Part shown: one piece after another, positions 14,840-60,342 of the stretch
How the letters are laid out: every line of letters begins with the position of its first letter
How positions within the stretch are numbered: the first letter of the stretch is position 1
Assembly (NCBI GenBank): GCA_030272585.1
Contig: BSYQ01000001.1
Coordinates: forward strand, 5,022,001 to 5,086,000
Length of the DNA stretch: 64,000 nucleotides
Direction of reading: 5' to 3'
Source of the DNA: Bryopsis sp. KO-2023
Taxonomy: Eukaryota > Chlorophyta > Ulvophyceae > Bryopsidales > Bryopsidaceae
Translations under genes and position numbers: made by a program
Notes under the pieces: model-generated
What the model saw: only the letters and a program-made list of their open reading frames with translations
The model's database searches: none
Told to the model about the DNA's origin: nothing

Positions 14840-15007
14840 CAGTCCCCCAAAATTCAGGCTGGAAATTCCAGCATCCAGCAACACAACAACACATGCAGTC
14901 CCCCAAAATTCAGGCTGGAAATTCCAGCATCCAGCAACACAACAACACATGCAGTCCCCCAAAATTCAGGCTGGAAATTCCAGCATCCAGCAACACAACA
15001 ACACATG
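14840..15007. repeat. Three perfect 56-bp tandem repeats in intron 2 of Q-hAT
   Basis: Units at 14840, 14896 and 14952 are identical by eye. They lie between donor 15037 and acceptor 14807 on the minus strand, so they are intronic. The apparent protein reading through them is not real. Confidence 0.9.
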
Positions 15008-21099: not shown

Positions 21100-22107
21100 C
21101 ATACTATGGATCCGATCACGATCTAATCGGTCGTGGATTGATCGGTCCGACCGATTAAATCGTGATCGGGTTTTTCCGATCAGATCGATCGCCGATCAAA
21201 TCGGTTTGGCCGATCATCGATGGAGATCGGCCGATCACCAATCTGATCGGCTGACCGATTTAATCGGCCAACTTTGATCGGCCGATCACGATCACACCGT
21301 CCAACATCGGCCGATCAAGCGCCGACAGGGCGAGGCGCTTGATCGTGATCGTGATCGGAGATGCCGATTAGATCGGATCATGATCGGTCAATTGATCGGT
21401 CCATCACAAATGCCGAGAAATCACCACCCGTAGGTGTTTCTGGGGTGCAAGGATTCGAACCTGGGACCTAACAGACTAGAGACAGACGCATTCACGCTTG
21501 GACCACTCGGAGCCACGGTTTGTAGGTCATCCGTGTCATCATATACCTCAGTTTGTCGGACTGACAGATCACGTATATAATGACACGGATGACCTACAAA
21601 CCGTGGCTCCGAGTGGTCCAAGTGTTAGTGAGTATGCTTCTAATCCGTTAGGTACCCGGTTCGAATCCTTCCACCTCAGAAACACCTGCGGGTGGTGACT
21701 TGTTGGCATTTTCGCGAGACCGATCAATTCATCGATCAAATGATCAATACCGATCATGATCGGATGCAGGTCCGATCACGATCGGCCGATCACGATCGGC
21801 CGATCACGATCACACCGATCAAGGTCAGCCGATGAAGTGCCGACAGGTCGCGGCGCTTGATCGTGATCGGGATCGTGATCGGCGAACCGATCACGATCAC
21901 GATCAACATGTGATCGGACGATCAAGAGCACGATCAACATTTGATCGGCCGATCACGATCACGATCACCGATCAGCCAAAAATGAAAAAAAAAAAAAAAA
22001 AAAACGATCATTGCTAAAATCGGTTCTAGGACGCAGTTATGATGTCGGATTATTGCTGTGACCTAATATTACCTTAGTTTTGGAAGATCGATCAGATCCA
22101 TAGTATG
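21100..22107. mobile_element. P1, non-autonomous hAT-like element with tRNA-like palindrome
   Basis: 1008 bp with TIR CATACTATGGATC / GATCCATAGTATG and target duplication GTGGCGAC (21092-21099 and 22108-22115). Dense GATCGG/CCGATC repeats flank a central palindrome. An A20-type run lies near 21985. No coding capacity. The 8-bp duplication and subterminal repeats fit hAT; the coding relative in the window is P-hAT. Confidence 0.9.
21412..21712. ncRNA. Head-to-head tRNA-like units in P1 (putative Pol III genes)
   Basis: Right unit (+): TATATAA near 21584, A-box-like TGGCTCCGAGTGG at 21604-21616, B box GGTTCGAATCC at 21658-21668, then a CACC-TGCG-GGTG hairpin and a T4 run at 21709-21712. Left unit (-): complementary boxes at 21503-21515 (A) and 21451-21461 (B). 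The arms are about 120 bp each. The cloverleaf is degenerate: I could not pair an acceptor stem. Transcription is inferred only. Confidence 0.6.
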
Positions 22108-22135: not shown

Positions 22136-23203
22136 CATACTATGGACGTGATCGGAAATGATCGGCCGTCCATTTTCGATGTCAGGACAGGTCGTTTCAC
22201 TGATCTGACCTGATACGATCTCGTTCCACATGATTCTAAAAATGATCGGTTTTTTTTTTTTTTTTTTTTACCGATCATGATCGATGATCGTGATCGTGAT
22301 CGGCCGATTAAAACCTGATCGATGATCGTGGTCGGCCGATCAAAGCTTGATCGTAATCGGGATCGGGCTTCCGATTATCGATCTAATCGGTTGCTCCGAT
22401 CACGATCCCGATCACGATCAAGCGTTGCGACATGCAGACGCCTAATCGGCCGATCAAGATCGGTGAAACGCCGATTAATCGGATGTTGATCCGATCACCT
22501 CCGACCATGATCGGCCATGGATCAATTGATCGGAATTTAATTTAAGATTCCGATCATGATCGGTCCCATGATCAATTGATCGGTCAATTGATCGGTCTTA
22601 CGAAAATGCCCACAAGTCACCACCCGAAGGTGTTTCTGGAGGTGTAAGGACTCGAACCTAGGACCTCACTGACTAGAATCAAGCAAATCAACGCTTGGAC
22701 CACTCTGAGCCACGATTAGAGTGTGCTCCGTGTCATTATATACCTGATCACTCAGTCCGACAAACTGAGGTATATAATAACACGGATGACTTAGTGATCG
22801 TGGCACAGAGTGGTCCAAGCGTTGATTTGCTTGATTCCAGTCAGTGAGGTCCTAGGTTCGAGTCCTTACACCTCCAGAAACACCTTCGGGTGGTGACTTG
22901 TGGGCATTTTCGTAAGACCGATCAATTGACCGATCAATTGATCATGGGACCGATCATGATCGGAATCAATTGATCATGATACCGATCTGATCGGCAGCTC
23001 CGATCCCGATCACGATCTCGATCAAGCGTCGCACCCTGTCGGCACCTGATCGGCAGTTTTTGATCGGCCGATCACGATCAGGCCGATCAAAAACTGCCGA
23101 TCAGGTTGGGCGACCGATCAGATCGATGATCGGCCGATCACGATCATGATCGGTCTCCCGGTTGATCGGAGACCGATCTGATCGTGATCGGATCCATAGT
23201 ATG
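22136..23203. mobile_element. P2, non-autonomous hAT-like element
   Basis: 1068 bp, TIR CATACTATGGA / CCATAGTATG, target duplication GATGCGAT (22128-22135 and 23204-23211). It belongs to the same subfamily as P3/P4 (left end CATACTATGGACGTGATCGG). It inserted 28 bases from P1 in the same pol gene. Confidence 0.9.
22603..22910. ncRNA. Head-to-head tRNA-like units in P2
   Basis: Right unit (+): A-box-like TGGCACAGAGTGG at 22801-22813, B box GGTTCGAGTCC at 22855-22865, CACC-TTCG-GGTG hairpin, T4 at 22907-22910. Left unit (-): A-box complement at 22700-22712, B-box complement at 22651-22661, A4 (T4 on the transcript) at 22603-22606. The two arms keep the same boxes with a few differences between them. 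Confidence 0.6.
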
Positions 23204-25562: not shown

Positions 25563-27332
25563 ATGCCAAAGCACAGCCCGATCATGTGGCGCAGCGGTGA
25601 TAAAGCGGTTGAGGGAAAGGAGTCGAGTGGAAAACAATTGGGTGGCAGCGGAAAAACAAAAAGCAGTGGCGGCGAGAAAGGCGGAAAAGCGCAGAGTGGA
25701 ACTCTCGCCGACGCTTGCCCACCCAGAGGGGAACCCAAACCACTTATCACACCACCTAAGGCGAAAATCATGAAAACTCTCCCAGCTCCTTCGGTGCTTT
25801 CGAAACTTCGGAACTTCGAAACGTCGTTGCTGAAAGGAACCTCCAAGATCGTAATTCGCCCACCGACAGAGTTGCCGGAAAAACTGCCGGAAAAACCTAG
25901 TTCCAGAACAGGAAAAACACTCGACCGTGACGCCGACCCAGCTACTCTCCAAGCTAGGTGTCAACGGTTACAAGACGATGTGTTGGAACTCCGGGCAGAA
26001 CGCGACGCACAACGCGCGCGGGCGGATCAAGCAGAGAAGCACTTGAAAAAGTTCGAGGGTGCAGCTCAAAGACTCTGCAATCAAGTGACCAAACTTGAAC
26101 ACGATCTGAAAATCGCTCAACAAGCGAGAGGAACAGCCGAACAGGAGTTGAGACAGCTTCAAAAGGAACTCGACACTGCGAACCAGACGCAGAAAAAGCT
26201 GCAATCGCAGCTGACGAAACAGCAGCCACACCTGACGTCCACAGACGAAAGGTCGGCCTGGCAAACGGCTGTGTACTCGTCCGAGGCACAGTCCGGTTTG
26301 ATGAGCCGGTTACTCCACAGCGTTCCCGCACGTTTGGGGGACTACGTGGAAAACCTTTGTCGGGCGACGATGGACGATATCATCGAGCAGGGTGCTGGAG
26401 CTGCTGCTGCGATCAGAGACGGAGAGGAGCCTGTCTACTACGGCAAAGGAAACGTTCCGGTTAACCACCGGCTAGCCGGGTATGACTATACGCAGGTGGA
26501 CAAAACGCTCGAGAGGATCAGAAATCGTGCAGCGGGGCACTTCGAAGTTCCCGACGTTGCAGACGATATGATCTCTGAGCCACAACCCAGGAGAATCCGC
26601 GACCTGACCGGGGGACAGACCGGGGGAAAGACCGACGAAAAGTCGGCGCCCAAGAAAAGGAAGGAGAGAGAGGAAGAGGAGGCGCTCGCCGACATGTCCA
26701 AGAGGTTCAAGGACAGGCGTGGGGAAAAGCCACCGATCTGTTTGTGGTGCTATTCGCCGCCGGCGCTGGCGGATAGCTACGTGATCACCACATGCACGAG
26801 CCACACGGTGTGCCGAACCCACTGGAATCTCATGATAATCCTCGTGCGCTTATACGGGGTGTGGCAGGAACAGCGAATCGACCCGCCACAGGTTCAGCTG
26901 AAGGACCTACGTTTGGACATGCGGGAGCCAGACTTCCAGCCACTCCTTCAGGCTCCACCCACGACCCAGACTCTCACCGAGTGCTATCAGTGCTTGAGAA
27001 GGGACATGGGCTTTCCGAAAGGCCTTGCCCTGAAGCGCTTGGGTCCGTTGGTGAAAAAGTGGGCGGAGGAGTATGAGAAGCAGGAAAAAGAGAGAACACC
27101 CGAACCAGAAACAAAAGGAGAACAAGACCCAAAACAGGACGAAGGAAAAAGTCCTTTCGTGTCAAGCAGGAGTCCATCCTCGGAGCCCTCGTCTTTGGGA
27201 CCTCTTCCTCCACCTGTGGATGAGGACTTCCCTCCTTTGGATTTGGACGAGGACGAGCCTCCGATCGACTTGGTGGAGGAGCCAGTCGATGACCCAGCTG
27301 ACGAACCAGCTGAACAACCAGCCGGCGGCTGA
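25563..27332 (+). CDS. Third ORF of chromovirus B1: coiled-coil protein with RING-like zinc motif (ORF3)
   Basis: 589 residues from an ATG at 25563. A basic N-terminus is followed by a coiled coil (about 120-225), a region rich in charged residues with a KKRKEREEEE patch, then CLWC, 14 residues, C-x2-H-x2-C-x2-H-W and about 65 residues later CYQC. The C-terminus is an acidic Pro-rich tail (PPIDLVEEP, repeated DDPADEPAEQP). The zinc-ligand order and the HW after the sixth ligand match the ORF3 of elements A and D, although the rest is hardly alignable. No membrane segment. Role unknown; it is open here while pol is broken, which may only reflect its recent duplication. Confidence 0.85.
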   Translation: MPKHSPIMWRSGDKAVEGKESSGKQLGGSGKTKSSGGEKGGKAQSGTLADACPPRGEPKPLITPPKAKIMKTLPAPSVLSKLRNFETSLLKGTSKIVIRPPTELPEKLPEKPSSRTGKTLDRDADPATLQARCQRLQDDVLELRAERDAQRARADQAEKHLKKFEGAAQRLCNQVTKLEHDLKIAQQARGTAEQELRQLQKELDTANQTQKKLQSQLTKQQPHLTSTDERSAWQTAVYSSEAQSGLMSRLLHSVPARLGDYVENLCRATMDDIIEQGAGAAAAIRDGEEPVYYGKGNVPVNHRLAGYDYTQVDKTLERIRNRAAGHFEVPDVADDMISEPQPRRIRDLTGGQTGGKTDEKSAPKKRKEREEEEALADMSKRFKDRRGEKPPICLWCYSPPALADSYVITTCTSHTVCRTHWNLMIILVRLYGVWQEQRIDPPQVQLKDLRLDMREPDFQPLLQAPPTTQTLTECYQCLRRDMGFPKGLALKRLGPLVKKWAEEYEKQEKERTPEPETKGEQDPKQDEGKSPFVSSRSPSSEPSSLGPLPPPVDEDFPPLDLDEDEPPIDLVEEPVDDPADEPAEQPAGG

Positions 27333-27615
27333 GATGGCTTCTGGAGTGACAACGAAAAGCAGACCAAGCCGGAGACCAAGCTACCGTCCAAGCCAGAGAC
27401 CACGCCTCAAGACAGAACGGGGTTTTTCTGTGGGTTGATCATGGGTTTGGTTTGGGATTTTTCATAGGTTTGTTTGGGGTTTAGTTTGACGTTTAGTTGG
27501 GGTTTTTGTTGTGGGTTTGTTTGGGGTTTCTTTCTCTTCTCGTTCGACCTTTTTCTTTCTTTCTTTCCAGGGTTGTGACGGGTGTGGACACCCTCTCGTG
27601 GGGGGGGGGACAAAT
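27333..27615 (+). other. 3' untranslated region and polypurine tract of B1
   Basis: GT-rich sequence with GGGGTTT-type repeats, then a G10 run at about 27600 directly followed by GACAAATTGATAG, the start of the LTR. No gene. Confidence 0.65.
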
Positions 27616-27720
27616 TGATAGTAGAACTCGGGTTTAGGGTTATGTTGTAGTACAATTGGGAGTACGACAGGGTTTATAGGGCAGGGGGCCCTCCTGTAAA
27701 AATTATCTTTCCCAGTGACA

Positions 27721-27755
<35 letters not shown>

Positions 27756-27784
27756 TGTGTGCTTGTGTCTCGGGGTCCTGTACC
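27616..27784 (+). repeat. Truncated 3' LTR of B1 with CT/GT microsatellite
   Basis: It starts TGATAGTAG after the polypurine tract and resembles the LTR start of B3 at 39907. It carries a (CT)n(GT)n microsatellite at about 27717-27762 and runs into target copy CCTGTACC of P3. Beyond P3 the sequence is pol coding, so the LTR is joined to a 5'-truncated element, with the junction left of or at the MITE. Confidence 0.65.
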
Positions 27785-28915
27785 CATACTATGGACGTGA
27801 TCGGAAATGATCGGCCGTCCATTTTCGATGTCAGGACAGGTCGTTTCACTGATCTGACCTGACACGATCTCGTTCCACATGATTCTAAAAATGATCGGTT
27901 TTTTTTTTTTTTTTTTTTACCGATCATGATCGATGATCGTGATCGTGATCGGCCGATTAAAACCTGATCGATGATCGTGATCGGCCGATCAAAGCCTGAT
28001 CGTGATCGGGATCGGGCTTCCGATTATCGATCTGATCGGCAGCTCCGATCACGACCACGATCACGATCAAGCGTCGCGACCTGTCGGCACGTGATCGGTC
28101 GATCAAGATCGGTGAAACGCCGATTGATCGGCCGTTGATCCGATCAGCTCCGACCATGATCGGCCATGGATCCATTGATCGGAATTTAATTTAAGATTCC
28201 GATCATGATCGGTCCCATAATCAATTGATCGGTCAAATGATCGATCTTACGAAAATGCCCACAAGTCACCACCCGAAGGTGTTTCTGGAGGTGTAAGGAT
28301 TCGAACCTAGGACCTCACTGACTGGAATCAAGCAAATCGACGCTTAGACCACTCTGAGCTACGGTAAGAGTGTGCTCCGTGTCATTATATACCTGATCAG
28401 TCAGTCCGACAAACTGAGGTATATAATAACACGGAGGACCTAGTGATCGTGGTTCAGGGTGGTCCAAGCGTTGATTTGCTTGATTCCAGTCAGTGAGGTC
28501 CTAGGTTCGAATCCTTACACCTCCAGAAACACCTTCGGGTGGTGACTTGTGGGCATTTGTGATGGACCGATCAATTGACCGATCAATTGATCATGGGACC
28601 GATCATGATCGGAATCAATTGATCATGATACCGATCTGATCGGCAGCTCCGATCCCGATCCCGATCTCGATCAAGCGTCGCACCCTGTCGGCACCTGATC
28701 GGCAGTTTTTGATCGGCCGATCACGATCAGGCCGATCAAAAACTGCCGATCAGGTTGGGCGACCGATCAGATCGGTGATCGGCCGATCGTGATCGATGAT
28801 CGGCCCTGCCAGACCTGATCGGCGACCGATCAGATCGGTGATCGGCCGATCACGATCATGATCGGTCTCCCGGTTGATCGGAGACCGATCTGATCGTGAT
28901 CGGATCCATAGTATG
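27785..28915. mobile_element. P3, non-autonomous hAT-like element
   Basis: 1131 bp, TIR CATACTATGGACGTGATCGG at left and CCATAGTATG at right, target duplication CCTGTACC (27777-27784 and 28916-28923). GATCGG repeats and a T18 run near 27900. It separates an LTR fragment from a truncated pol. Confidence 0.9.
28252..28560. ncRNA. Head-to-head tRNA-like units in P3
   Basis: Left unit (-): B-box complement GGATTCGAACC near 28297, A-box complement near 28350, T4 complement at 28252-28255. Right unit (+): box A eroded (TGGTTCAGGGTGG near 28450), B box GGTTCGAATCC at 28504-28514, CACC-TTCG-GGTG hairpin, but only three Ts at the end. The right unit is therefore more decayed than in P1 and P2. Confidence 0.5.
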
Positions 28916-31897
28916 CCTGTACCCCTATCAGAGAAGGTATTGCACCCGGGTATCGACCCAAGGATCAAGACTGTCCTCACAACTTTTCAGGATGTTTTCC
29001 CGAAAGACTTACCACCCGGAATCCCTCCAGTGCGGAAAGGCCACGAATTTAAGGTGGACCTGGAGGATGAGCAAATGACCCCAATCCACCGACCTTTGTA
29101 CAAACTTTCTCCGGCGGAGCTGGATGAAGTCAGGTCGCAAGTGGATTATCTCCTCGAACAAAGGAAAATCCGTCCCTCCGAGAGTCCCTGGGGTGCGCCC
29201 ATACTCTTTGTTCCAAAGAAAGACGGAGGACTTCGGATGTGTGTGGATTACCGTTGGATAAACAAGTTCACGGTTAAAAACAGATATCCACTGCCGCTTC
29301 CTGAGGAGTTAATGGACCGTCTCGCGAGGGCAAAGATCTATACGAAGATCGACCTTCGCTCGGGCTACTGGCAATTCCCCGTTCGACCCAAGGATACTCC
29401 CAAGACAGCATTCCGGACAAGATACGGACATTACGAGTTTCTCGTTTGCCCGTTCGGAATGACCAACTGTCCAGCCCAGTTCCAGACAATGGTTCAGGAT
29501 CTGTTGGGCGAGTTCCTTGACGACTTTGTTGTGGTGTTCATCGACGACATTCTGGTATTTTCCAACTCAGTGGAAGACCATGTCGAACACCTTAAATTGG
29601 TCTTTGAACGGTTGCGGAAACATAAGCTGTACGCGAAAGCCAGTAAGTGCGAAGTAGGAGTCTTAGAGACGGACTATTTGGGGTACCATTTGTCCGGGAA
29701 AGGCCTTCAACCGATGCAGGATAAGGTGGAGGCTATTCAACGTTGGAAGGAGTTAACTTCGGTAACTGATGTATGAAGTTTCCTGGGAATGGTTTCTTAC
29801 TATCGTAAGTTCATTCCTGAGTTCGCTAGGATTGCGAGTCCCTTGACAGATCTGACAAAGAAAGATACTGTTTGGGAATGGGGACAGAACCAGCGCAAAG
29901 CCTATAACGAACTTAAGGATCGGATTCGCCGTGCACCGATTCTACTCCTTCCTGATCCGGCGAAAGAATACACCGTGATAACGGATGCATCCGGAACTGC
30001 GTATGGAGCAGTTCTGACCCAGGACCACGGGAAAGGTTTGCAACCTATTGCTTACCTTTCTAGACGATTAAAACCAGCTGAAACGCGATACTCCGCATAC
30101 GAGCGGGAGCTGGGGGCGATAGCTTATGCTCTAGCCCAATGGCGACATTATCTCGAGGGATGCCATGGGGGTGTGACGGTGTTGACAGACCACAAACCCA
30201 TCACCCACTTCATGACCCAGGCAACTTTGTCGCGGACCCAAACCCGGTGGATGAGGTCAGGGTTTTTCGATTCCATAGGTCCAAAAATCGTCTACATCCA
30301 GGGAAAAGCCAACGTTTTGGCAGATGCATTATCCCGGAGCCTTCCAGGTCAGCCGGACCAAATAAAAAACCTCTCCACTTGGGAAGTGGCAGAGAAGGAC
30401 ACATGGAAAGAGGCTTTGAGAAGCGACACAAAACTCAAGCCTATTTTCGAGAAAATGGAACGAGGGGTTTCTCCGCAGTATCAACTTGAGGACGGTTTTC
30501 TGTATTATACCAGAACAGAAACAGGTCCAAGTTTACTTGTGGTCCCCGAGGACTTTCAAAAACGGATTTTGGATGAGCACCATGACGTGCCATGTGCCGG
30601 ACATGTTGGAGCAGACCGCATGACCGAGGTACTTACCCGCAACTACTGGTGGAAAGGCGTTGGGCTAGACATCAAGACATACGTGAAAACGTGTCCAACA
30701 TGTCAGCTTAACAAATCGGACTTGCAACGACAGAAAGGTCTTTTGCAGCCGTTGCCGATTCCAGACCAGAAATGGGAACAGATCACGACGGATCTCGTTA
30801 CCGACCTACCGTCTTCCCATGGCTTCACTGCAATCGCTGTCTTTGTAGACCGATTGACGAAGTATGCGAGGTTTGTACCCTGCAACAAGACTATCACGGC
30901 GCCGGAATACGCCAAGCTGTTCGTGGAGAACATATATAAGCACTACGGGCTGCCTAAAATCATAGTTTCGGATCGGGATCCAAGGTTCACAAGTTTGTTC
31001 TGGACCTCCCTTTTCAAACTTTTAGGTACCCAGCTCCGGATGAGCACTGCATACCATCCTCAAACGGATGGGCAGTCGGAAGTCACCATCCGGGTGCTGG
31101 AGGATTTCCTGCGTCCGTATGTGGAACGGTACCCAGACCGTTGGGTGGATTATTTGCCAACCGCGGAATTTGCCGCAAATAATTCACGGAATGTCTCCAC
31201 AGGCTACGCGCCAGCCCATCTTCTGTATGGCCAGAACATGGGGCAGATAGTTGTTGCCAGGAAGGGAGTTCGGACGGGCGATGAATCAGAAATGGCGGCT
31301 GAGATGGTACGTCGCATGGAAGACCAAATGCGAAACGCTAAGGCGAAATACGCAGAGGCACAGAACCGCATGTGCACCTCAGCAAACAAACGTCGAAGGA
31401 AAGTGGATTTTCAGGTTGGCGATGAAGTGCTGGTACATAGCAAGTATATTCCCCTTGCTTCACTTCAGAAAATTCCACCGAAAATCCGCCGGCGATTTGT
31501 TGGACCTTTCCGGGTGGCTAGCCGAATTGGGGCTGTCGCCTATCGTCTTGACCTTCCCGACCACTGGAAAATCCACCCAACTTTCCATGTGTCGAAACTG
31601 AAGGCTTACTCTCGGCTTGATGACGATCAGCGAGAGATAGACGCTCTAGAGGGGGAGCTAGTGGATGGAACCATCGAATTCGAGGTCGAGCGCATCCTCA
31701 GAGATCGGGGCACTACTCGCAAGGAGTATCTGATCCTTTGGAAGGGCTACGATTTGATGGAATCCACCTGGGAGCCAGAAAGCCACCTGGCCAATGCCCA
31801 GGACTTGCTTAAGGAGTACTTAGCCAACAAACCGGAGAATAAACAAGTGACCCAGTCTAAGAAAAAGACTCGGGCCCAACGCAGAACTCGAACCTAA
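28916..31897 (+). pseudogene. pol: Pol of B2 (5'-truncated hybrid)
   Basis: It begins inside pol just before RT (PVPLSEKVLHPG) with no gag or protease. RT (FIDDIL), RNase H, integrase and chromodomain follow. A TGA at 29774-29776 replaces the CGA present in B1 at the start of the conserved SFLGMVSYYRKF motif, a single C-to-T change at a CpG. The part before 30914-30936 matches B3 and the part after it matches B1, so this gene is a recombinant. Confidence 0.92.
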
Positions 31898-32517
31898 ACA
31901 GGGATCATTACCACTCTGTTCACGCTCGACTTAATACTATCCTTCCAGCTGGGGGAAAAATATTAAGCCGAGAAAGTCGATTTGGAACGCTATCCAGATG
32001 GGATACCAAAAAGACTTAGGAAAAGAGCACCAAGTAGAACTCCCGGAAAAGCCTAGGGAAAGTTTCCATCTTTTCCTGGGGAAAGTTTCCATCTTTTCCG
32101 GCGAACGGGTTGCTATCTTTTCCCGTGACAGAACTGTGGACGGTTCGCAGGACGGGCTAGGGGTCAGTTTTCTTTCCGGGGAGGTTTACCTAACGCACAA
32201 CTCACACGCTCATAGCGACTGACAACAGGTGATGGGGACATTGGATCAAGTGATGGGTTAATGTCCGACCTGGAGGTCACGTGATTGCGCCGCAGGTGGA
32301 ACTGAGTTGACATAAGCAAGTTAGGGTAAAATCAAATAGGCACAAACCCGTGTGGTGACGGTGACCTCCATAGAGTGTCACGTTACCGAGGTACGTTAGC
32401 TAATACGCCTAGCGTATCTTAAAGCGGACTTGCGATCATTTTGTCCTGGTTATTCTCGGCGCGCATACAGAAAAGTCGGAGACTAGTCGGAGAACTAAGC
32501 GCAGCCAGAAAAAGAGA

Positions 32518-34287
32518 ATGCCAAAGCACAGCCCGATCATGTGGCGCAGCGGTGATAAAGCGGTTGAGGGAAAGGAGTCGAGTGGAAAACAATTGGGTGG
32601 CAGCGGAAAAACAAAAAGCAGTGGCGGCGAGAAAGGCGGAAAAGCGCAGAGTGGAACTCTCGCCGACGCTTGCCCACCCAGAGGGGAACCCAAACCACTT
32701 ATCACACCACCTAAGGCGAAAATCATGAAAACTCTCCCAGCTCCTTCGGTGCTTTCGAAACTTCGGAACTTCGAAACGTCGTTGCTGAAAGGAACCTCCA
32801 AGATCGTAATTCGCCCACCGACAGAGTTGCCGGAAAAACTGCCGGAAAAACCTAGTTCCAGAACAGGAAAAACACTCGACCGTGACGCCGACCCAGCTAC
32901 TCTCCAAGCTAGGTGTCAACGGTTACAAGACGATGTGTTGGAACTCCGGGCAGAACGCGACGCACAACGCGCGCGGGCGGATCAAGCAGAGAAGCACTTG
33001 AAAAAGTTCGAGGGTGCAGCTCAAAGACTCTGCAATCAAGTGACCAAACTTGAACACGATCTGAAAATCGCTCAACAAGCGAGAGGAACAGCCGAACAGG
33101 AGTTGAGACAGCTTCAAAAGGAACTCGACACTGCGAACCAGACGCAGAAAAAGCTGCAATCGCAGCTGACGAAACAGCAGCCACACCTGACGTCCACAGA
33201 CGAAAGGTCGGCCTGGCAAACGGCTGTGTACTCGTCCGAGGCACAGTCCGGTTTGATGAGCCGGTTACTCCACAGCGTTCCCGCACGTTTGGGGGACTAC
33301 GTGGAAAACCTTTGTCGGGCGACGATGGACGATATCATCGAGCAGGGTGCTGGAGCTGCTGCTGCGATCAGAGACGGAGAGGAGCCTGTCTACTACGGCA
33401 AAGGAAACGTTCCGGTTAACCACCGGCTAGCCGGGTATGACTATACGCAGGTGGACAAAACGCTCGAGAGGATCAGAAATCGTGCAGCGGGGCACTTCGA
33501 AGTTCCCGACGTTGCAGACGATATGATCTCTGAGCCACAACCCAGGAGAATCCGCGACCTGACCGGGGGACAGACCGGGGGAAAGACCGACGAAAAGTCG
33601 GCGCCCAAGAAAAGGAAGGAGAGAGAGGAAGAGGAGGCGCTCGCCGACATGTCCAAGAGGTTCAAGGACAGGCGTGGGGAAAAGCCACCGATCTGTTTGT
33701 GGTGCTATTCGCCGCCGGCGCTGGCGGATAGCTACGTGATCACCACATGCACGAGCCACACGGTGTGCCGAACCCACTGGAATCTCATGATAATCCTCGT
33801 GCGCTTATACGGGGTGTGGCAGGAACAGCGAATCGACCCGCCACAGGTTCAGCTGAAGGACCTACGTTTGGACATGCGGGAGCCAGACTTCCAGCCACTC
33901 CTTCAGGCTCCACCCACGACCCAGACTCTCACCGAGTGCTATCAGTGCTTGAGAAGGGACATGGGCTTTCCGAAAGGCCTTGCCCTGAAGCGCTTGGGTC
34001 CGTTGGTGAAAAAGTGGGCGGAGGAGTATGAGAAGCAGGAAAAAGAGAGAACACCCGAACCAGAAACAAAAGGAGAACAAGACCCAAAACAGGACGAAGG
34101 AAAAAGTCCTTTCGTGTCAAGCAGGAGTCCATCCTCGGAGCCCTCGTCTTTGGGACCTCTTCCTCCACCTGTGGATGAGGACTTCCCTCCTTTGGATTTG
34201 GACGAGGACGAGCCTCCGATCGACTTGGTGGAGGAGCCAGTCGATGACCCAGCTGACGAACCAGCTGAACAACCAGCCGGCGGCTGA
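32518..34287 (+). CDS. ORF3 of B2 (coiled coil plus RING-like motif)
   Basis: A 589-residue copy of the B1 protein at 25563-27332, with an identical predicted translation. Same CLWC, C-x2-H-x2-C-x2-H-W and CYQC ligands. It belongs to the duplicated unit, so it is not independent evidence of conservation. Confidence 0.85.
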   Translation: MPKHSPIMWRSGDKAVEGKESSGKQLGGSGKTKSSGGEKGGKAQSGTLADACPPRGEPKPLITPPKAKIMKTLPAPSVLSKLRNFETSLLKGTSKIVIRPPTELPEKLPEKPSSRTGKTLDRDADPATLQARCQRLQDDVLELRAERDAQRARADQAEKHLKKFEGAAQRLCNQVTKLEHDLKIAQQARGTAEQELRQLQKELDTANQTQKKLQSQLTKQQPHLTSTDERSAWQTAVYSSEAQSGLMSRLLHSVPARLGDYVENLCRATMDDIIEQGAGAAAAIRDGEEPVYYGKGNVPVNHRLAGYDYTQVDKTLERIRNRAAGHFEVPDVADDMISEPQPRRIRDLTGGQTGGKTDEKSAPKKRKEREEEEALADMSKRFKDRRGEKPPICLWCYSPPALADSYVITTCTSHTVCRTHWNLMIILVRLYGVWQEQRIDPPQVQLKDLRLDMREPDFQPLLQAPPTTQTLTECYQCLRRDMGFPKGLALKRLGPLVKKWAEEYEKQEKERTPEPETKGEQDPKQDEGKSPFVSSRSPSSEPSSLGPLPPPVDEDFPPLDLDEDEPPIDLVEEPVDDPADEPAEQPAGG

Positions 34288-34570
34288 GATGGCTTCTGGA
34301 GTGACAACGAAAAGCAGACCAAGCCGGAGACCAAGCTACCGTCCAAGCCAGAGACCACGCCTCAAGACAGAACGGGGTTTTTCTGTGGGTTGATCATGGG
34401 TTTGGTTTGGGATTTTTCATAGGTTTGTTTGGGGTTTAGTTTGACGTTTAGTTGGGGTTTTTGTTGTGGGTTTGTTTGGGGTTTCTTTCTCTTCTCGTTC
34501 GACCTTTTTCTTTCTTTCTTTCCAGGGTTGTGACGGGTGTGGACACCCTCTCGTGGGGGGGGGGACAAAT

Positions 34571-34675
34571 TGATAGTAGAACTCGGGTTTAGGGTTATGT
34601 TGTAGTACAATTGGGAGTACGACAGGGTTTATAGGGCAGGGGGCCCTCCTGTAAAAATTATCTTTCCCAGTGACA

Positions 34676-34710
<35 letters not shown>

Positions 34711-34739
34711 TGTGTGCTTGTGTCTCGGGGTCCTGTACC
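34571..34739 (+). repeat. Truncated LTR of B2 with CT/GT microsatellite
   Basis: Duplicate of 27616-27784, again ending in CCTGTACC before a P MITE. Confidence 0.7.
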
Positions 34740-35812
34740 CATACTATGGACGTGATCGGAAATGATCGGCCGTCCATTTTCGATGTCAGGACAGGTCGTT
34801 TCACTGATCTGACCTGACACGATCTCGTTCCACATGATTCTAAAAATGATCGGTTTTTTTTTTTTTTTTTTTTACCGATCATGATCGATGATCGTGATCG
34901 TGATCGGCCGATTAAAACCTGATCGATGATCGTGATCGGCCGATCAAAGCCTGATCGTGATCGGGATCGGGCTTCCGATTATCGATCTGATCGGCAGCTC
35001 CGATCACGACCACGATCACGATCAAGCGTCGCGACCTGTCGGCACGTGATCGGTCGATCAAGATCGGTGAAACGCCGATTGATCGGCCGTTGATCCGATC
35101 AGCTCCGACCATGATCGGCCATGGATCCATTGATCGGAATTTAATTTAAGATTCCGATCATGATCGGTCCCATAATCAATTGATCGGTCAAATGATCGAT
35201 CTTACGAAAATGCCCACAAGTCACCACCCGAAGGTGTTTCTGGAGGTGTAAGGATTCGAACCTAGGACCTCACTGACTGGAATCAAGCAAATCGACGCTT
35301 AGACCACTCTGAGCTACGGTAAGAGTGTGCTCCGTGTCATTATATACCTGATCAGTCAGTCCGACAAACTGAGGTATATAATAACACGGAGGACCTAGTG
35401 ATCGTGGTTCAGGGTGGTCCAAGCGTTGATTTGCTTGATTCCAGTCAGTGAGGTCCTAGGTTCGAATCCTTACACCTCCAGAAACACCTTCGGGTGGTGA
35501 CTTGTGGGCATTTGTGATGGACCGATCAATTGACCGATCAATTGATCATGGGACCGATCATGATCGGAATCAATTGATCATGATACCGATCTGATCGGCA
35601 GCTCCGATCCCGATCACGATCTCGATCAAGCGTCGCACCCTGTCGGCACCTGATCGGCAGTTTTTGATCGGCCGATCACGATCAGGCCGATCAAAAACTG
35701 CCGATCAGGTTGGGCGACCGATCAGATCGGTGATCGGCCGATCGTGATCGATGATCGGCCCTGCCAGACCTGATCGGCGACCGATCAGATCGGTGATCGG
35801 ATCCATAGTATG
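34740..35812. mobile_element. P4, duplicated P element with internal deletion
   Basis: 1073 bp, same TIRs and target duplication CCTGTACC (34732-34739 and 35813-35820) as P3. It lacks 58 bp near its right end, where GATCGG-type repeats flank the lost piece. One further base differs (CCC versus CAC near 35605). Confidence 0.9.
35207..35515. ncRNA. Head-to-head tRNA-like units in P4
   Basis: Same as in P3 at an offset of 6955: good left unit on the minus strand, right unit with eroded A box, intact B box (35459-35469) and no T4 run. Confidence 0.5.
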
Positions 35813-38800
35813 CCTGTACCCCTATCAGAGAAGGTATTGCACCCGGGTATCGACCCAAGGATCAAGACTGTCCTCACAACTTTTCAGGATGTTTTCCCGA
35901 AAGACTTACCACCCGGAATCCCTCCAGTGCGGAAAGGCCACGAATTTAAGGTGGACCTGGAGGATGAGCAAATGACCCCAATCCACCGACCTTTGTACAA
36001 ACTTTCTCCGGCGGAGCTGGATGAAGTCAGGTCGCAAGTGGATTATCTCCTCGAACAAAGGAAAATCCGTCCCTCCGAGAGTCCCTGGGGTGCGCCCATA
36101 CTCTTTGTTCCAAAGAAAGACGGAGGACTTCGGATGTGTGTGGATTACCGTTGGATAAACAAGTTCACGGTTAAAAACAGATATCCACTGCCGCTTCCTG
36201 AGGAGTTAATGGACCGTCTCGCGAGGGCAAAGATCTATACGAAGATCGACCTTCGCTCGGGCTACTGGCAATTCCCCGTTCGACCCAAGGATACTCCCAA
36301 GACAGCATTCCGGACAAGATACGGACATTACGAGTTTCTCGTTTGCCCGTTCGGAATGACCAACTGTCCAGCCCAGTTCCAGACAATGGTTCAGGATCTG
36401 TTGGGCGAGTTCCTTGACGACTTTGTTGTGGTGTTCATCGACGACATTCTGGTATTTTCCAACTCAGTGGAAGACCATGTCGAACACCTTAAATTGGTCT
36501 TTGAACGGTTGCGGAAACATAAGCTGTACGCGAAAGCCAGTAAGTGCGAAGTAGGAGTCTTAGAGACGGACTATTTGGGGTACCATTTGTCCGGGAAAGG
36601 CCTTCAACCGATGCAGGATAAGGTGGAGGCTATTCAACGTTGGAAGGAGTTAACTTCGGTAACTGATGTATGAAGTTTCCTGGGAATGGTTTCTTACTAT
36701 CGTAAGTTCATTCCTGAGTTCGCTAGGATTGCGAGTCCCTTGACAGATCTGACAAAGAAAGATACTGTTTGGGAATGGGGACAGAACCAGCGCAAAGCCT
36801 ATAACGAACTTAAGGATCGGATTCGCCGTGCACCGATTCTACTCCTTCCTGATCCGGCGAAAGAATACACCGTGATAACGGATGCATCCGGAACTGCGTA
36901 TGGAGCAGTTCTGACCCAGGACCACGGGAAAGGTTTGCAACCTATTGCTTACCTTTCTAGACGATTAAAACCAGCTGAAACGCGATACTCCGCATACGAG
37001 CGGGAGCTGGGGGCGATAGCTTATGCTCTAGCCCAATGGCGACATTATCTCGAGGGATGCCATGGGGGTGTGACGGTGTTGACAGACCACAAACCCATCA
37101 CCCACTTCATGACCCAGGCAACTTTGTCGCGGACCCAAACCCGGTGGATGAGGTCAGGGTTTTTCGATTCCATAGGTCCAAAAATCGTCTACATCCAGGG
37201 AAAAGCCAACGTTTTGGCAGATGCATTATCCCGGAGCCTTCCAGGTCAGCCGGACCAAATAAAAAACCTCTCCACTTGGGAAGTGGCAGAGAAGGACACA
37301 TGGAAAGAGGCTTTGAGAAGCGACACAAAACTCAAGCCTATTTTCGAGAAAATGGAACGAGGGGTTTCTCCGCAGTATCAACTTGAGGACGGTTTTCTGT
37401 ATTATACCAGAACAGAAACAGGTCCAAGTTTACTTGTGGTCCCCGAGGACTTTCAAAAACGGATTTTGGATGAGCACCATGACGTGCCATGTGCCGGACA
37501 TGTTGGAGCAGACCGCATGACCGAGGTACTTACCCGCAACTACTGGTGGAAAGGCGTTGGGCTAGACATCAAGACATACGTGAAAACGTGTCCAACATGT
37601 CAGCTTAACAAATCGGACTTGCAACGACAGAAAGGTCTTTTGCAGCCGTTGCCGATTCCAGACCAGAAATGGGAACAGATCACGACGGATCTCGTTACCG
37701 ACCTACCGTCTTCCCATGGCTTCACTGCAATCGCTGTCTTTGTAGACCGATTGACGAAGTATGCGAGGTTTGTACCCTGCAACAAGACTATCACGGCGCC
37801 GGAATACGCCAAGCTGTTCGTGGAGAACATATACAAGCATTACGGACTACCTAAAGTAATAGTTTCGGATCGGGACCCAAGGTTCACAAGTCTTTTCTGG
37901 ACCTCCCTTTTCAAACTTTTAGGTACCCAACTCCGAATGAGTACTGCATACCATCCTCAGACGGATGGGCAGTCGGAAGTCACAATTCGGGTGTTGGAGG
38001 ATTTCTTACGTCCGTACGTGGAACGGTATCCAGACCGTTGGGTGGATTATTTGCCGACGGCTGAGTTTGCCGCAAATAATTCACGGAATGTCTCCACCGG
38101 CTACGCGCCAGCCCACTTGTTATATGGACAGAACATGGGGCAGATAGTTGTTGCAAGAAAAGGAGTTCGAACGGGAGAGCAATCGGAAATGGCGGCTGAG
38201 ATGGTTCGTAACATGAACGAACAAATGCGAATGGCGAAAGCTAAATACGCAGAAGCACAGACTCGTATGTGCAACTCAGCAAACAAACGTCGAAGGAAAG
38301 TGGATTTTCAGGTTGGGGATGAAGTGCTGGTTAAAAGCAAGTTTATTCCCCTTGCTTCACTTCAGAAAATTCCGCCGAAAATTCGCCGACGCTTTGTTGG
38401 ACCTTTCCGGGTGACAAGCCGTATTGGGGCTGTTGCCTACCGACTCGAACTACCGGAGCACTGGACAATCCACTCGACTTTTCACGTGTCGAAGTTGAAG
38501 GCTTACTCTCGACTTCGTGACGATCAGCGAGAGATAGAAGTTCCAGGGGGGGAACTAGTGGATGGAACCATCGAGTTCGAGGTCGAACGCATCCTCAGAG
38601 ACCGGGGCACTACTCGAAAGGAGTACCTGGTTTTGTGGAAGGGTTACGACTTGATGGAAGCCACCTGGGAGCCAGAGAGCCACCTGGCCAATGCTCAGGA
38701 CTTGCTCAAGGAATACTTAGCCAACAAACCGGAGAACAGACAGAGGACCCAGTCTAAGGAAAAGACTACGGAAAAGACTAAGAAAAAGACTAAGACCCAA

Positions 38801-38818
38801 CGGAGAACCCGAACCTAA
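35813..38818 (+). pseudogene. pol: Pol of B3 (5'-truncated)
   Basis: It starts in the same pol position as B2 and has the same TGA (36671-36673). After about 37833 it diverges from B2 at many positions, with an extended Lys/Thr-rich C-terminus (repeated EKTTEKTKKKTK). RT, RNase H, integrase and chromodomain are otherwise recognisable. No gag or protease. Confidence 0.92.
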
Positions 38819-46998: not shown

Positions 46999-47463
46999 CA
47001 GAGATAGGACTTGGGCCAAATTTTTGGTCCGACTCCGGTCCGGTCCGGTTACGGTCGGGTTACGGTCACCGTACTACGGCCGTAACTCCGTACCGTAACC
47101 GGAGTAATATGTTGTTTTTACGGTACGGAACAGGTACGGTATAACTACGGTAGGCCCTAAATCACCGTGAAGTAGCGTGGTTCAGTGCTAAAGCGTTAGG
47201 CTGCAGTCAGTAGGGTCGCGGGTTCGAATCCCCCTGGGTTCCTTTGGAATCGCGGGACCCTGCGGGGGTCACTTTCTACGGTTTACGGTTGTTACGGCCG
47301 TTACGGTCGTTACGGTCCGGTACGGAGCGGTACGGAGTGGTACGGTGCTACGGTTACGGCCGTAAAAGTACGATTTTCTGACGAAAATTGTACTCCGGTT
47401 ACGGTCCGGTTACGGTGGTTACGGTCCGGTTACGGTGACCGTAACCGTAAAGTCCTATCTCTG
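46999..47463. mobile_element. Q1, non-autonomous hAT-like element
   Basis: 465 bp, TIR CAGAGATAGGACTT / AAGTCCTATCTCTG, target duplication CTCCGAAG (46991-46998 and 47464-47471). Filled with TTACGGT, GGTCCGG and their complements, like the end of Q-hAT. It holds one tRNA-like unit and has no coding capacity. Confidence 0.92.
47168..47275 (+). ncRNA. tRNA-like unit in Q1
   Basis: It reads GCGTGGTTCAGTGCTAAAG, then GCAGTCAGTAGGGTCG, B box GGTTCGAATCC (47221-47231) and a GGACCC-TGCG-GGGGTC hairpin followed by ACTTTC. It aligns with the units of the P elements (AAGCGTT, CAGTCAGTGAGGTCC, the TGCG hairpin and GGTGACTT). It resembles a degenerate tRNA with Pol III internal boxes; no T4 run follows closely and expression is unproven. 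Confidence 0.55.
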
Positions 47464-53179: not shown

Positions 53180-55343
53180 GTATGAGATAAGTTCGGGGCA
53201 TTGGTCATTGAGGAAGTACCTGCAAACACGGTTGAATGAGTTGGGACGAGTGGAAAAATGCAGGGATTTAGAAAGAATAGTGGGTATTATAGCGTATGCG
53301 CGGCGTGCCATACCGAATGTGGAGAGGTATTTATCCCCTCTCAGGAGTGCATTAAAGATGGCCAAAAAAGGAGAGGTGTGTTGGGGGCGAGTGAATACCC
53401 TGGTAAAAGAGGTAGTAGCAGTGGTGGTGAGTATGCAGAGGAAGATATCGTTGGCAGGGATGGACACAGCGGGTTATTTGTTGGAGACTGATTGGTCGGG
53501 ATCACATGGTGGGTATATGTTATATGCGAGGTGTGGGGAGAAATTTTATCTTATTGACATGGGCAGTTGTGTGGTAAGGGAGGAAACGTCGTCGTTTCTC
53601 GGAGAGATGAGGACTCTGTGTTGGGCGTTGAGGAGGACAAAGGGAATGCGAGGCGATATGCATACGGTAGTGAAATCCGATAATGCAGCGATAGTAGAGA
53701 GCCTACGCGAGGGAAAGATTGGCAGGCCTGATAAACGTGTGGTGAGGATACTCGGGTGGATATGGTCTAATGAGACAGAAATAGAGTATAGCTTTGTGCC
53801 AGGCGAGCAAAATGTGGGTGCAGACCTATTGTCTCGCCCAGCAAATGAAAAAAAGGAAAGGAGGAAAAAAAGGGGTGCCGGCAGAAAGGGGGCAGGAGTG
53901 TTGATGGCGAGCATGGGGGCGGAGGAGGAACAACGACGTGGGGATTTAATATGGAGGACGCATGGGCGCGGGCATTGGGGGGCCGATAAAGTATATTGGG
54001 AGCTCCGAGAGAAGGGGCACATGGTAACAATGAGAGAGGTGAGGGAGTTGGTTAGGAAATGTCCAGTGTGTGCGAGATACAGGGACAGGGTACCTCGAGT
54101 GCCATTACGACAACCCCCGGTAGCAAATACACCGGGGGAGGTATTATATTTAGATGCAGTGGGGCCAGTCCGTGTTGGACGAGGGGGGCTGAAACATATC
54201 ATTTCAGTGATTGATTCGATCACTAGGATGACGTTGGCAGTGCCATGTAGGGATGTGAATGGTGAAAAGATCGTGAAGACATTAAACAAGTGGGTTGGGG
54301 AGTTTGGCAGGCCAAAAAAAATAGTGACAGATGGGGCCAGTTATATGGTGGGGGTCAGTCATGGGCTGCACAGGACAGACCCCTGTCCTGTGCGCCGCAC
54401 AGGACAGGGTTCTGTGCAGGTTCTGTGCACCCTGTGCTGTCCTGTCCTGTTTTCGAAAATCCAGGACAGATGTGCACAGGGTCAGATCTGTGCTGCACAG
54501 GCGCACAGACTGCACAGCACAGCACAGAATCTGCACAGAACTGCACAGACTCTGCACAGACTCTGGACAGAATTTGCACAAACTCTGCACAGAATCCGCA
54601 CAGACTCTGCACAGAACTGCACAGGCCCTGCACAGACTTTGCACAGACCTGCACAGACCTGCACAGACCCTGCACAGACCCGGTCTGTGCTGTGCTGTGC
54701 AGGTCTGTGCACCTGTGCAGCACAGGTTAAACCCTGTGCACAGAACAGACAGTCTGTTCTGTCCTGTCCTGTGCACAGGGGTCTCAGCCCATGTCTGGTG
54801 GGGGTTTGTGTGAGTGATTGGTGCGAGGGACATCAGGTGGAACATGTGGTAATAGCCCCGCATAGGCATGAAAGTGTGGGAATAGTCGAACGGATGCAAA
54901 GGACACTCGTGGACAGGTTGAGGAAAATCACGTGGCACAGGGGGGGATCATGGACAGATCATGTTGAGACCGCAATACAGGAGATGCGGAATAGCAGGAA
55001 TGCGGTGACAGGGTGGAGTCCAGTGCGGTTATGGAACGAAGGCACTGAGGCAGATTTCCAGAAGGTCCGAGAGAAAGGGGTACGGCTACGAGAGTATCAT
55101 AATTCAAGAAGGAAGGTGGTCCATCAGGATATTAAGGTAGGGGCCTGGGCGTGGGCGTTTGATGCAGTCGCAGCCACTGGGAAGGAGAATAGGTGGCAGC
55201 CCAAGTGGAAGGGGCCAGTCCGAGTATGTGAGCAGGTGAGCGACACGCTATGGCGTGTGGAAGAAGAAGTACCTCGAGTAGGACGAGGACGGAGGCCTAC
55301 TTTGGTGTACCACAGGGATCATTTGCAAGTTGTGCGTGTTTAG
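53180..55343 (+). pseudogene. pol: Pol of element E, second part (RNase H and integrase) with in-frame R1
   Basis: Continues E from KFIGYE onward: RT connection, RNase H (LETDWSGSHGGYML; VKSDNAA), an integrase zinc domain (H...H...CPVC) and the D-D-E core (LYLDAVGP, IVTDGASY, GIVERMQ). MITE R1 lies between the second D and the E. Without R1 the spacing is D-x35-E, as in active integrases; with it 150 residues are added. The frame stays open across R1 to the stop at 55341. No matching LTR was found on either side of E. Confidence 0.85.
54356..54797. mobile_element. R1, non-autonomous hAT-like element of CTGTGCAGA repeats
   Basis: 442 bp, TIR CAGTCATGGGCTG / CAGCCCATGTCTG, target duplication GTGGGGGT (54348-54355 and 54798-54805). 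The interior is mostly CTGCACAGA repeats (complement TCTGTGCAG) with CAGGACAG blocks near the ends. Confidence 0.9.
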
Positions 55344-57967: not shown

Positions 57968-58101
57968 TAGTTTGAGTAGTCCGTACCCACTAGCGTATTT
58001 CTTCCAAGGCCGCTGTTACTTCGGCCTCAGTCCGCGTCGCCCACTCGTGAGGGTCGCCCCCTAGCCTATGCACTTCTTCCGCGCTCTGGTCTGGTATTTC
58101 C

Positions 58102-59072
58102 CATACTATGGATCTGATCGATCTGCTAGAACCAAGGTAATATTAGGTCGGACTAGTGATCCGACCTGATAACCACGTCCCAGAACCGATATTAGTAATG
58201 ATCGGTTTTTTTTTGTTTTTTTTGTTTTTTGGCTGATCGGTGATCGTTATCGTGATCGGTCGATCAAATGTTGATCGTGATCGGGATCGGTCGACCGATC
58301 ACCGATCAGATCGGCTGCTCCGATCACGATCACCGATCACGATCAAGCGCCGCGACCTGTCGGCACTTGATCGACTGACTCTGATCGGTGTGATCGTGAT
58401 CGGATGCAGGTCCGATCATGATCGGTATTGATAATTTGATCGATCAATTGATCGGTCTAGCGAAAATGTTTACAAGTCACCACCCGCAGGTGTTTCTGGG
58501 GTAAAGGGATTCGAACCGGGTACCTAACGGACTAGAAGAAGCTATACTAACGCTTGGACCACTCGGAGCCACGATCACTAGGTCATCCGTGTCATTATAT
58601 ACGTGATCTGTCAGTCCGACAAACTGAGGTATATAATGACACGGATGACCTAGTGATCGTGGCTCCGAGTGGTCCAAGCGTTAGTGTATCTGCTTCCAGT
58701 CCGTTAGGTACCCGGTTCGAATCCCTCTACCCCAGAAACACCTGCGGGTGGTGATTTGTTGGCATTTCCGATCATGATCGGGCGCGAGCCGATCATGATC
58801 GGCGACACCGATCCCGATCACGATCTCGATCAAGCGCCGCAACCTGTCGGCACTTGATCGGCCGACTCTGATCGGTGTGATCGTGATCGGCCGATCAAAG
58901 TCGACCGATTTGATCGGTCAGTCGATTTGATCGGTGATCGGCCGATCTCGATCGATGATCGGCCGGATGGATTTGATCGGCGACCGATCTAATCGGAAAA
59001 AGCCGATCACGATTTAATCGGTCGGGCCGATTAATCGGCGATCGATCAAATCGTGATCGGATCCACAGTATG
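58102..59072. mobile_element. P5, non-autonomous hAT-like element
   Basis: 971 bp, TIR CATACTATGGATC / GATCCACAGTATG, target duplication GTATTTCC (58094-58101 and 59073-59080). Its left end matches the right end of P1, so it lies in the opposite orientation. It interrupts the N-terminal gag region of C. Confidence 0.9.
58463..58770. ncRNA. Head-to-head tRNA-like units in P5
   Basis: Right unit (+): TATATAATGAC from 58631, A-box-like TGGCTCCGAGTGG at 58660-58672, B box GGTTCGAATCC at 58714-58724, CACC-TGCG-GGTG hairpin. Left unit (-): A-box complement at 58559-58571, B-box complement at 58507-58517, T4 complement at 58463-58466. The right unit ends in TTT only. The two units differ mainly in the anticodon-arm-like region. 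Confidence 0.6.
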
Positions 59073-59080
59073 GTATTTCC

Positions 59081-59414: not shown

Positions 59415-60342
59415 TGTTACGTGTGGGAAGTTTAGATCACGTTTGGAAAAGGTTCAAGGGAGTTAGAGTGCCACGTGGGGGTTTGTGACCACGTGTAATA
59501 GGTAGCTTCTTGATGGGAGTGAGTTCTGAGAAGCTCCTGGAACTTAGAACCCAAGTTCACGGTGAATTTACAAGGTTCTAGCTTCCAGGCAGACATGGGC
59601 TGAGACCTCTGTGCACAGGACAGGACAGAACAGACTGTCTGTTCTGTGCACAGGGTCAGACCTGTGCTGCACAGGTGCACAGACCTGTACAGCACAGCAC
59701 AGACAGGGTCTGTGCAAAATCTGTGCAGTTTCTGTGCAGTTCTGTGCAGATTCTGTGCAAAATCTGTGCAGATTCTGTGCAGTTCTGTGCAGATTCTGTG
59801 CAGTTCTGTGCTGTGCTGTGCAAGTCTGTGCACCTGTGCAGCACAGGTCTGACCCTGTGCACAGAACAGACAGTCTGTTCTGTCCTGGCCTGTGCAATTC
59901 CGCTGCACAGGACAGGACAGCACAGGGTGCACAGAACCTGCACAGAACCCTGTCCTGTGCGATGCACAGGACAGGGGTCTGTCCTGTGCAGCCCATGACT
60001 GCTTCCAGGCACAATCCAATTCGCAGTCTTTTTGTGGATAAAAAGGCGTTGTATTCTGAACTACTTGTAACTTCTGGTTCGTCCTTTTCCTCCTGTAACA
60101 CCAGTTGATATGGTGATTCTGAGAAGGACTAGTTCCTGAATATAACCGGGGTAGTCCACAACTGTGGACTCGGGTTCTTATAGTCTGCTGGGCTAGTCCC
60201 GCGGGCAGAATCGTGGTTAACCGCATTCCAGGTCATCCGGACTTGGGTCCGTGCATGACCACACATGTGTGAAGGTACAAGGCTGGTATACCAAGGGGAT
60301 CGGAATGGGGTCCTGTGTTACGGTGTCTCTCTAAGCGCTACA
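59415..60342 (-). repeat. Presumed 5' LTR of element C, carrying R2
   Basis: On the minus strand it would start TGTAGCGC and end CGTAACA before the primer site. Without R2 it is about 508 bp. No second LTR is in the window to confirm the borders. Confidence 0.45.
59590..60001. mobile_element. R2, second R-family element
   Basis: 412 bp, TIR CAGACATGGGCTG / CAGCCCATGACTG, target duplication CTTCCAGG (59582-59589 and 60002-60009). TCTGTGCAG repeats on the plus strand, so it is inverted relative to R1. Confidence 0.9.

Follow-up and report, generated by a model that had tools for sequence, protein, structure and literature searches.

Retroelements need a promoter for their own RNA, and the capture of Pol III promoters is therefore expected in them. 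MITEs, which move by cut and paste, can do without any RNA of their own, and the persistence of tRNA-derived promoter parts in two MITE families therefore raises the question of what a promoter does for the mobility of such elements. The question arises at 58463-58770 of the 64-kb stretch of DNA analysed here (the window), a unit which the initial annotation had read as two divergent tRNA-like genes and which forms the centre of W1, a 971-bp hAT MITE of the P family (58102-59072). All motifs of the twin, outward-facing Pol III-type promoter layout proposed for the P centres lie where they had been placed, as given here for W1 and its flanks:

58094..58101 (no strand): left target-site copy GTATTTCC, 8 bp
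58102..58114 (+): left terminal inverted repeat (TIR), the 13-mer CATACTATGGATC
58102..58426 (no strand): left end common to W1 and long hAT elements, ~76% identity (W1 1-325 against L109, L110 and L111)
58427..58767 (no strand): twin tRNA-like cassette, ~340 bp, missing from the three long hAT copies examined
58463..58466 (-): T4 run 3' of the left arm
58481..58492 (-): left-arm hairpin CACC-TGCG-GGTG
58507..58517 (-): left-arm B box GGTTCGAATCC
58559..58571 (-): left-arm A-box-like motif TGGCTCCGAGTGG
58595..58601 (-): left-arm TATATAA
58602..58629 (no strand): centre separating the two TATATAA boxes, 28 bp
58630..58636 (+): right-arm TATATAA
58660..58672 (+): right-arm A-box-like motif TGGCTCCGAGTGG
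58714..58724 (+): right-arm B box GGTTCGAATCC
58739..58750 (+): right-arm hairpin CACC-TGCG-GGTG, without a T4 run afterwards
58768..59072 (no strand): right end common to W1 and long hAT elements, ~85% identity (W1 667-971)
59060..59072 (-): right TIR GATCCACAGTATG
59073..59080 (no strand): right target-site copy GTATTTCC, 8 bp

In the centre two divergent arms point outward from the 28-bp core, and in each arm TATATAA is followed after 30 nt by the start of the A box, after a further 54 nt by the start of the B box and then by the CACC-TGCG-GGTG hairpin. The Pol III-type promoter layout is real; factor binding, transcription and a benefit to mobility are what we infer from it.

The P family in the window and in the genome

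Four further P elements with both arms are present in the window:

21100..22107 (no strand): W2, target copy GTGGCGAC
22136..23203 (no strand): W3, target copy GATGCGAT
27785..28915 (no strand): W4, target copy CCTGTACC
34740..35812 (no strand): W5, target copy CCTGTACC

All five window elements have inverted ends and identical 8-bp flanks, and with four different target sequences among them the proposal that independent insertions retain both arms holds. As W4 and W5 are both flanked by CCTGTACC and fall within two near-identical gypsy stretches in succession (25563-38818), they are probably one insertion that was duplicated afterwards. Strict B boxes (GGTTCRANTCC) number 11 in the window, where 50 mononucleotide shuffles average 0.18; ten lie in P arms and one, at 47221, in an element of a second family, Q. 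Genome-wide, the strict pattern has 3677 sites, a total that includes true tRNA genes, and the reversed pattern 187, and some of the B-box-like sites in the genome sit on transposons. Separately, seven strict B boxes were seen on one strand within 1.7 kb, close to a contig end (G000 C1:4642-6333).

The TIR 13-mer occurs 381 times in the 91-Mb genome and its control not once. For motif counts, conservation and fold we used 45 P elements (90 arms), the five from the window and 40 chosen among similarity-ranked matches to queries that covered both arms, a choice that favours intact twins and affects all three; perfect 8-bp target copies flank 37 of the 45. This bias is sidestepped by a free-spacing pattern, in which TATATAA, part of the D arm and the B box are demanded and both gaps may vary over 31 lengths, and by a TIR-defined sample of 24 exact-TIR pairs lying 0.5-2.6 kb apart, paired by hand among the first 100 of the 381 places listed. 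Two strict arms were found in 15 of these 24 elements, one in 8 and none in a single element, L113.

Relation to long hAT elements

Three long elements bounded by the P TIR (L109, L110 and L111; 6.85-7.34 kb) are flanked by perfect target copies. Their ends are 76-85% identical to those of W1, whereas the central ~340 bp of W1 match nothing in them, and by this comparison P elements are non-autonomous hAT MITEs carrying an added cassette. The centre of L070, a related P copy, gave a single 44-nt match to the long elements, which is to a Q insert within L109; this Q element (about 1694-2160 of L109) breaks the hAT transposase frame there. In L110 an uninterrupted ORF of 839 aa (stop to stop) contains the hAT dimerisation domain (Dimer_Tnp_hAT, E=7.8e-16), and the L110 hAT transposase is a candidate helper for P elements.

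A second ORF of the long element (L110:3998-5140, minus strand) had no Pfam match. A relative of this ORF, with 40% over 133 aa, is the window ORF 11042-12193 (minus strand), so that the region around 11-12 kb of the window may hold a related long element. The ORF 13898-14962, considered as a hAT transposase, was rejected as such, with neither a Pfam match nor a match to the L110 transposase. Pfam was run on seven window ORFs, which describes the surroundings of the cassette only; by eye, the ORFs 53208-55343 and 59432-60226 each have a repetitive Gln-, His-, Cys- and Thr-rich stretch, and the two stretches are similar.

L113, the only TIR-defined element lacking a strict arm, is 515 bp long and cassette-free, and as a query it found itself as the sole full-length match among 40 scored of 339 candidates. 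We rejected it as an ancestral empty site: it is a single copy within that search and its junction lies inside overlapping repeat DNA, so that a later deletion of the cassette is as likely an origin.

Resemblance to tRNA-Leu

The arms were compared with a panel of 77 distinct tRNAs from fetched loci, an incomplete set, and with 100 controls each in which the boxes were kept and the stretch between them was shuffled. For the right arm of W1 (W1p) the best partner was tRNA-Leu(AAG) with a score of 70, reached by none of the 100 controls (all at or below 63). The observed score was reached by 1 of 100 controls for L070A, 0 for L070B and 1 for L108p, and the diverged arms fit less clearly, with 5 of 100 for W4p and 10 of 100 for W4m. 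Best partners of the other P arms were Leu(AAG) or other Leu isoacceptors, L108p tying with an ARAGORN SeC call. The A and B boxes are 54 nt apart in P arms and, by hand count, 56 nt apart in the genome's own tRNA-Leu(TAA). Judged from these alignments, the least diverged arms have good support for an ancestry in tRNA-Leu and those of W4 weak support, and Leu(AAG) is a provisional parent isoacceptor because the panel is incomplete. A search for the parent gene by an anticodon-arm motif returned 90 matches, and all among those listed read like P arms.

Two further features of the genome's tRNA genes were seen in passing: at about 2.78-3.77 Mb of G000 C5 they occur every ~3 kb, as if in tandem arrays, and locus L019 has several of them together with one 5S rRNA gene.

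That the arms are themselves RNA genes, as the term 'tRNA-like genes' had implied, was not borne out. ARAGORN called no tRNA gene in the 64-kb window, and the covariance-model check with Rfam gave no tRNA match for window or cassette, with zero tRNA hits in the window at the gathering score and no tRNA among the matches listed for 58440-58790 in permissive mode (E<=10); over the P and Q modules, the permissive mode returned only weak matches, below every cut-off. No conserved RNA fold was found in the alignment either (alifold z -0.39; an equally good fold arose in 71 of 200 column shuffles). A pair of true tRNA genes was rejected, the cloverleaf being absent, and so was a pair of SINEs: a tRNA-derived head is present, most clearly in W1p, but P lacks the marks of retroposition and has fixed 8-bp target copies and inverted ends instead. 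As P has lost the cloverleaf and conserves no RNA fold, the cassette is to be read as promoter parts rather than as a tRNA, and it looks as if promoter-like parts persist in P, not an RNA.

Conservation of motifs and spacing

The motifs are present in most arms: TATATAA in 88 of 90, always 30 nt ahead of the A box, a match to the B-box consensus in 81 and a hairpin with a UNCG-type loop in 83. The A box is more varied. TGGCTCCGAGTGG, described before as its best form, is that of the major subfamily (44 of 90 arms) and departs from the consensus used for scoring, TRGYNNARNNNGG, at the conserved A; the 41 of 90 arms that agree with the consensus all belong to the subfamily other than the TGGCTCCGAGTGG-type. 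Mean pairwise identities were as follows:

17 representatives (<95% identity): TATATAA 1.00, A box 0.86, B box 0.94, hairpin 0.92, A-B interval 0.71
9 representatives (<90% identity): TATATAA 1.00, A box 0.89, B box 0.96, hairpin 0.90, A-B interval 0.70

When the four features were taken jointly and set against circular shifts, only 273 and 309 of 20000 reached the observed conservation, whereas the A and B boxes alone showed no clear excess over block pairs drawn at random, of which 2835 and 996 of 20000 did as well. The suggested check, whether boxes, hairpin and T4 are conserved beyond the rest of the element, had a mixed outcome: TATA, B box and hairpin exceed the A-B interval and the four features together exceed chance, and the A and B boxes by themselves do so weakly.

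Spacing was examined with the free-spacing pattern, which found 261 arms in the genome and none in the control. The arm span is exactly 95 nt in all 100 arms listed of the 261; 84 of these 100 pair into 42 twins at one offset, and no twin occurs at another. Among nine chosen elements, cut into fixed-length slices, gap openings per substitution were 0.03-0.04 from TATATAA to the B box against 0.40-0.66 beyond the B box. The 28-bp centre is likewise constant in length, the outer parts of P are GATC-rich repeats prone to slippage, and the constant spacing may come partly from few master copies and a low indel rate.

It is here that the main rival to a working promoter has to be weighed, namely that the cassette is a passive passenger. 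A successful MITE would have picked up, as filler, a tRNA-Leu pseudogene duplicated into an inverted repeat and spread it with its own copies; the motifs would seem conserved because these copies are young and go back to a small number of masters. The constant length of the 28-bp centre and the failure of the A and B boxes alone to stand clearly above random blocks fit this explanation, as do the T4 runs missing from most B arms (see below) and the consensus A missing from many A boxes. It accounts less well for the conservation of TATA, B box and hairpin next to an A-B interval that drops to 0.70-0.71 identity between lineages, for the retention of at least one strict arm by 23 of the 24 TIR-defined MITEs and for the occurrence of the module in a second MITE family, Q. 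We regard it as a serious contender, though one with less than an even chance.

TATA box, U6 genes and terminators

A TATATAA within 70 nt upstream was found in none of 103 distinct tRNA genes of this genome in the fetched loci. In U6 genes, which are Pol III genes, it lies 29 nt upstream of the RNA start in both of the two read, of five found (hand count), and the P cassette accordingly joins a U6-like TATA to tRNA-like boxes. Because TATA and A box lie 30 nt apart, a start placed as in U6 would coincide with the A box, nearer than expected for a tRNA-type promoter, and this distance counts against a simple Pol III reading.

A T4 run had been reported for most arms. It is present in 6 of the 10 window arms and in 49 of the 90 arms of the 45 elements. 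Almost all of these runs belong to a single arm type, and T4 as a general feature is not supported: 42 of 45 A arms have it at 105-106 nt from the start of the A box, and just 7 of 45 B arms have one within 150 nt. No T4 precedes the end of the element in 23 of 37 measurable B arms. Between the A and B boxes there is none in any of the 90 arms. For comparison, 67 of the 103 own tRNA genes have a T4 within 60 nt.

These data also bear on a reading of the TATATAA pair as a divergent Pol II core promoter, with A and B boxes as tRNA remains of no importance. TATATAA is the most conserved part, at a fixed distance of 30 nt ahead of the A box, which together with the lack of a comparable TATA in the 103 own tRNA genes and the 23 of 37 B arms without a T4 before the element end would suit Pol II; the retention of the B box by 81 of 90 arms, the absence of T4 between A and B in all 90 and the same TATA in two U6 genes speak against it, and we consider it improbable.

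A second family with a single module

The eleventh strict B box of the window led to the second family, Q, with these features:

46999..47463 (+): Q element, hAT-like MITE with one tRNA-like module, 465 bp, target copy CTCCGAAG
47178: A-box-like motif of the module, TGGTTCAGTGC
47221-47231: B box of the module
47256-47270: hairpin of the module, GACCC-TGCGG-GGGTC, downstream of the B box

This copy is inserted between parts of a gypsy reading frame. From its ends (CAGAGATAGGACTT / AAGTCCTATCTCTG) and the length of its target copy, on which the label rests, Q may be called a hAT-like MITE. A genome search found it in at least 40 places with 100% identity over 465 bp (40 scored of 554 candidates). 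Six copies were extracted from fetched loci, four with perfect 8-bp target copies, one cut by the end of the locus and one without, and their insertion sites include the hAT transposase frame of L109, a P arm (L112) and a tRNA-Leu(AAG) gene (L019). The best tRNA in the panel for the Q module was again Leu(AAG), with a score of 62 against a control maximum of 59, and Rfam at E<=5 listed no tRNA match for the module.

The single module of Q also matters for a further explanation of the P centre, in which the palindrome itself is what counts: a transcript across the inverted arms would fold back and feed small RNAs. The arms are indeed inverted copies of each other, but those of one element differ between the boxes and the arm types stay distinct across copies, so that arm-arm pairing is not maintained there. 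With Q having only one module in addition, we hold this explanation to be very improbable.

Proposed role of the cassette

The reading we prefer, and to which we would give about an even chance, is that the cassette is a divergent pair of Pol III promoters on a hAT MITE that aids mobility through its occupancy. Both ends of a 7-kb hAT element would have been kept and its inside replaced by two divergent promoters derived from tRNA-Leu, and a hAT transposase would mobilise the resulting P elements, as their shared ends suggest. TFIIIC would bind the A and B boxes and TFIIIB the TATATAA, and Pol III would make short outward-running non-coding RNAs that terminate at T4 chiefly on one side. The open, boundary-like centre, bound by TFIIIC and Pol III, could leave both ends within reach of the transposase and resist silencing. 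As no fold is conserved, the RNA of the cassette is probably not what matters.

For a Pol III function speak the resemblance to tRNA-Leu beyond the boxes, the identical spacing of TATA, A and B (100 arms listed of 261) and the second family Q; against it stand the A and B boxes that alone show no clear excess, an A box without the consensus A in the major subfamily and the B arms, mostly without T4. There are hints that tRNA-type promoters may help such elements persist. With rather more doubt than belief, we would extend the proposal to the lineage as a whole, in which cut-and-paste transposons would time and again take up Pol III promoters of tRNA origin for their own selfish ends, occupancy raising transposition or evading silencing and the twin being the bidirectional form. 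The system is testable, as a candidate transposase, many cassette-bearing copies and the cassette-free L113 coexist in one genome.

Comparison with known systems

SINEs are the classical elements bearing tRNA promoters and are moved through RNA. Those derived from tRNAs share with P the internal tRNA-derived A and B boxes and the many short copies; they are retrotransposed, whereas P has TIRs, fixed 8-bp target copies and hAT ends. In its inverted ends, its 8-bp target copies and the ends held in common with a transposase-bearing element, P resembles hAT MITEs, but we know of no description of ordinary MITEs as carriers of tRNA-derived promoter modules, and a literature search whose scope left out most subscription journals found no DNA-transposon counterpart. 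A possible mode of action is suggested by reports on TFIIIC sites and SINEs as chromatin boundaries (PMC8136502, PMC11346459); by analogy, P might offer a B-box platform that limits the spread of silencing, in its case with two divergent A-B units and TATATAA.

Helenus / TRIMp3 and Ajax are reported to be short LTR elements with small-RNA-derived sequence in which promoter boxes persist and RNA structure is lost (PMC10886601). As described there, Helenus / TRIMp3 is like P in being short and non-autonomous, with captured tRNA-derived sequence, in its case in the LTRs, and conservation around boxes A and B, and differs as an LTR retrotransposon copied through RNA with 4-5-bp target copies (PMC10886601). 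P belongs to the cut-and-paste hAT MITEs and has inverted ends, target copies of 8 bp and a pair of divergent modules. Dada DNA transposons are linked to tRNA genes in another way, reportedly inserting into small-RNA genes (PMC8869645). P instead carries tRNA-derived sequence. One Q copy lies inside a tRNA-Leu gene (L019), but P and Q also insert elsewhere.

Cassandra, Helenus and SINEs are the closest precedents for the P cassette, and if the wider proposal is true, P with two modules and Q with one would be instances of a DNA-transposon counterpart of SINEs and TRIMp3.
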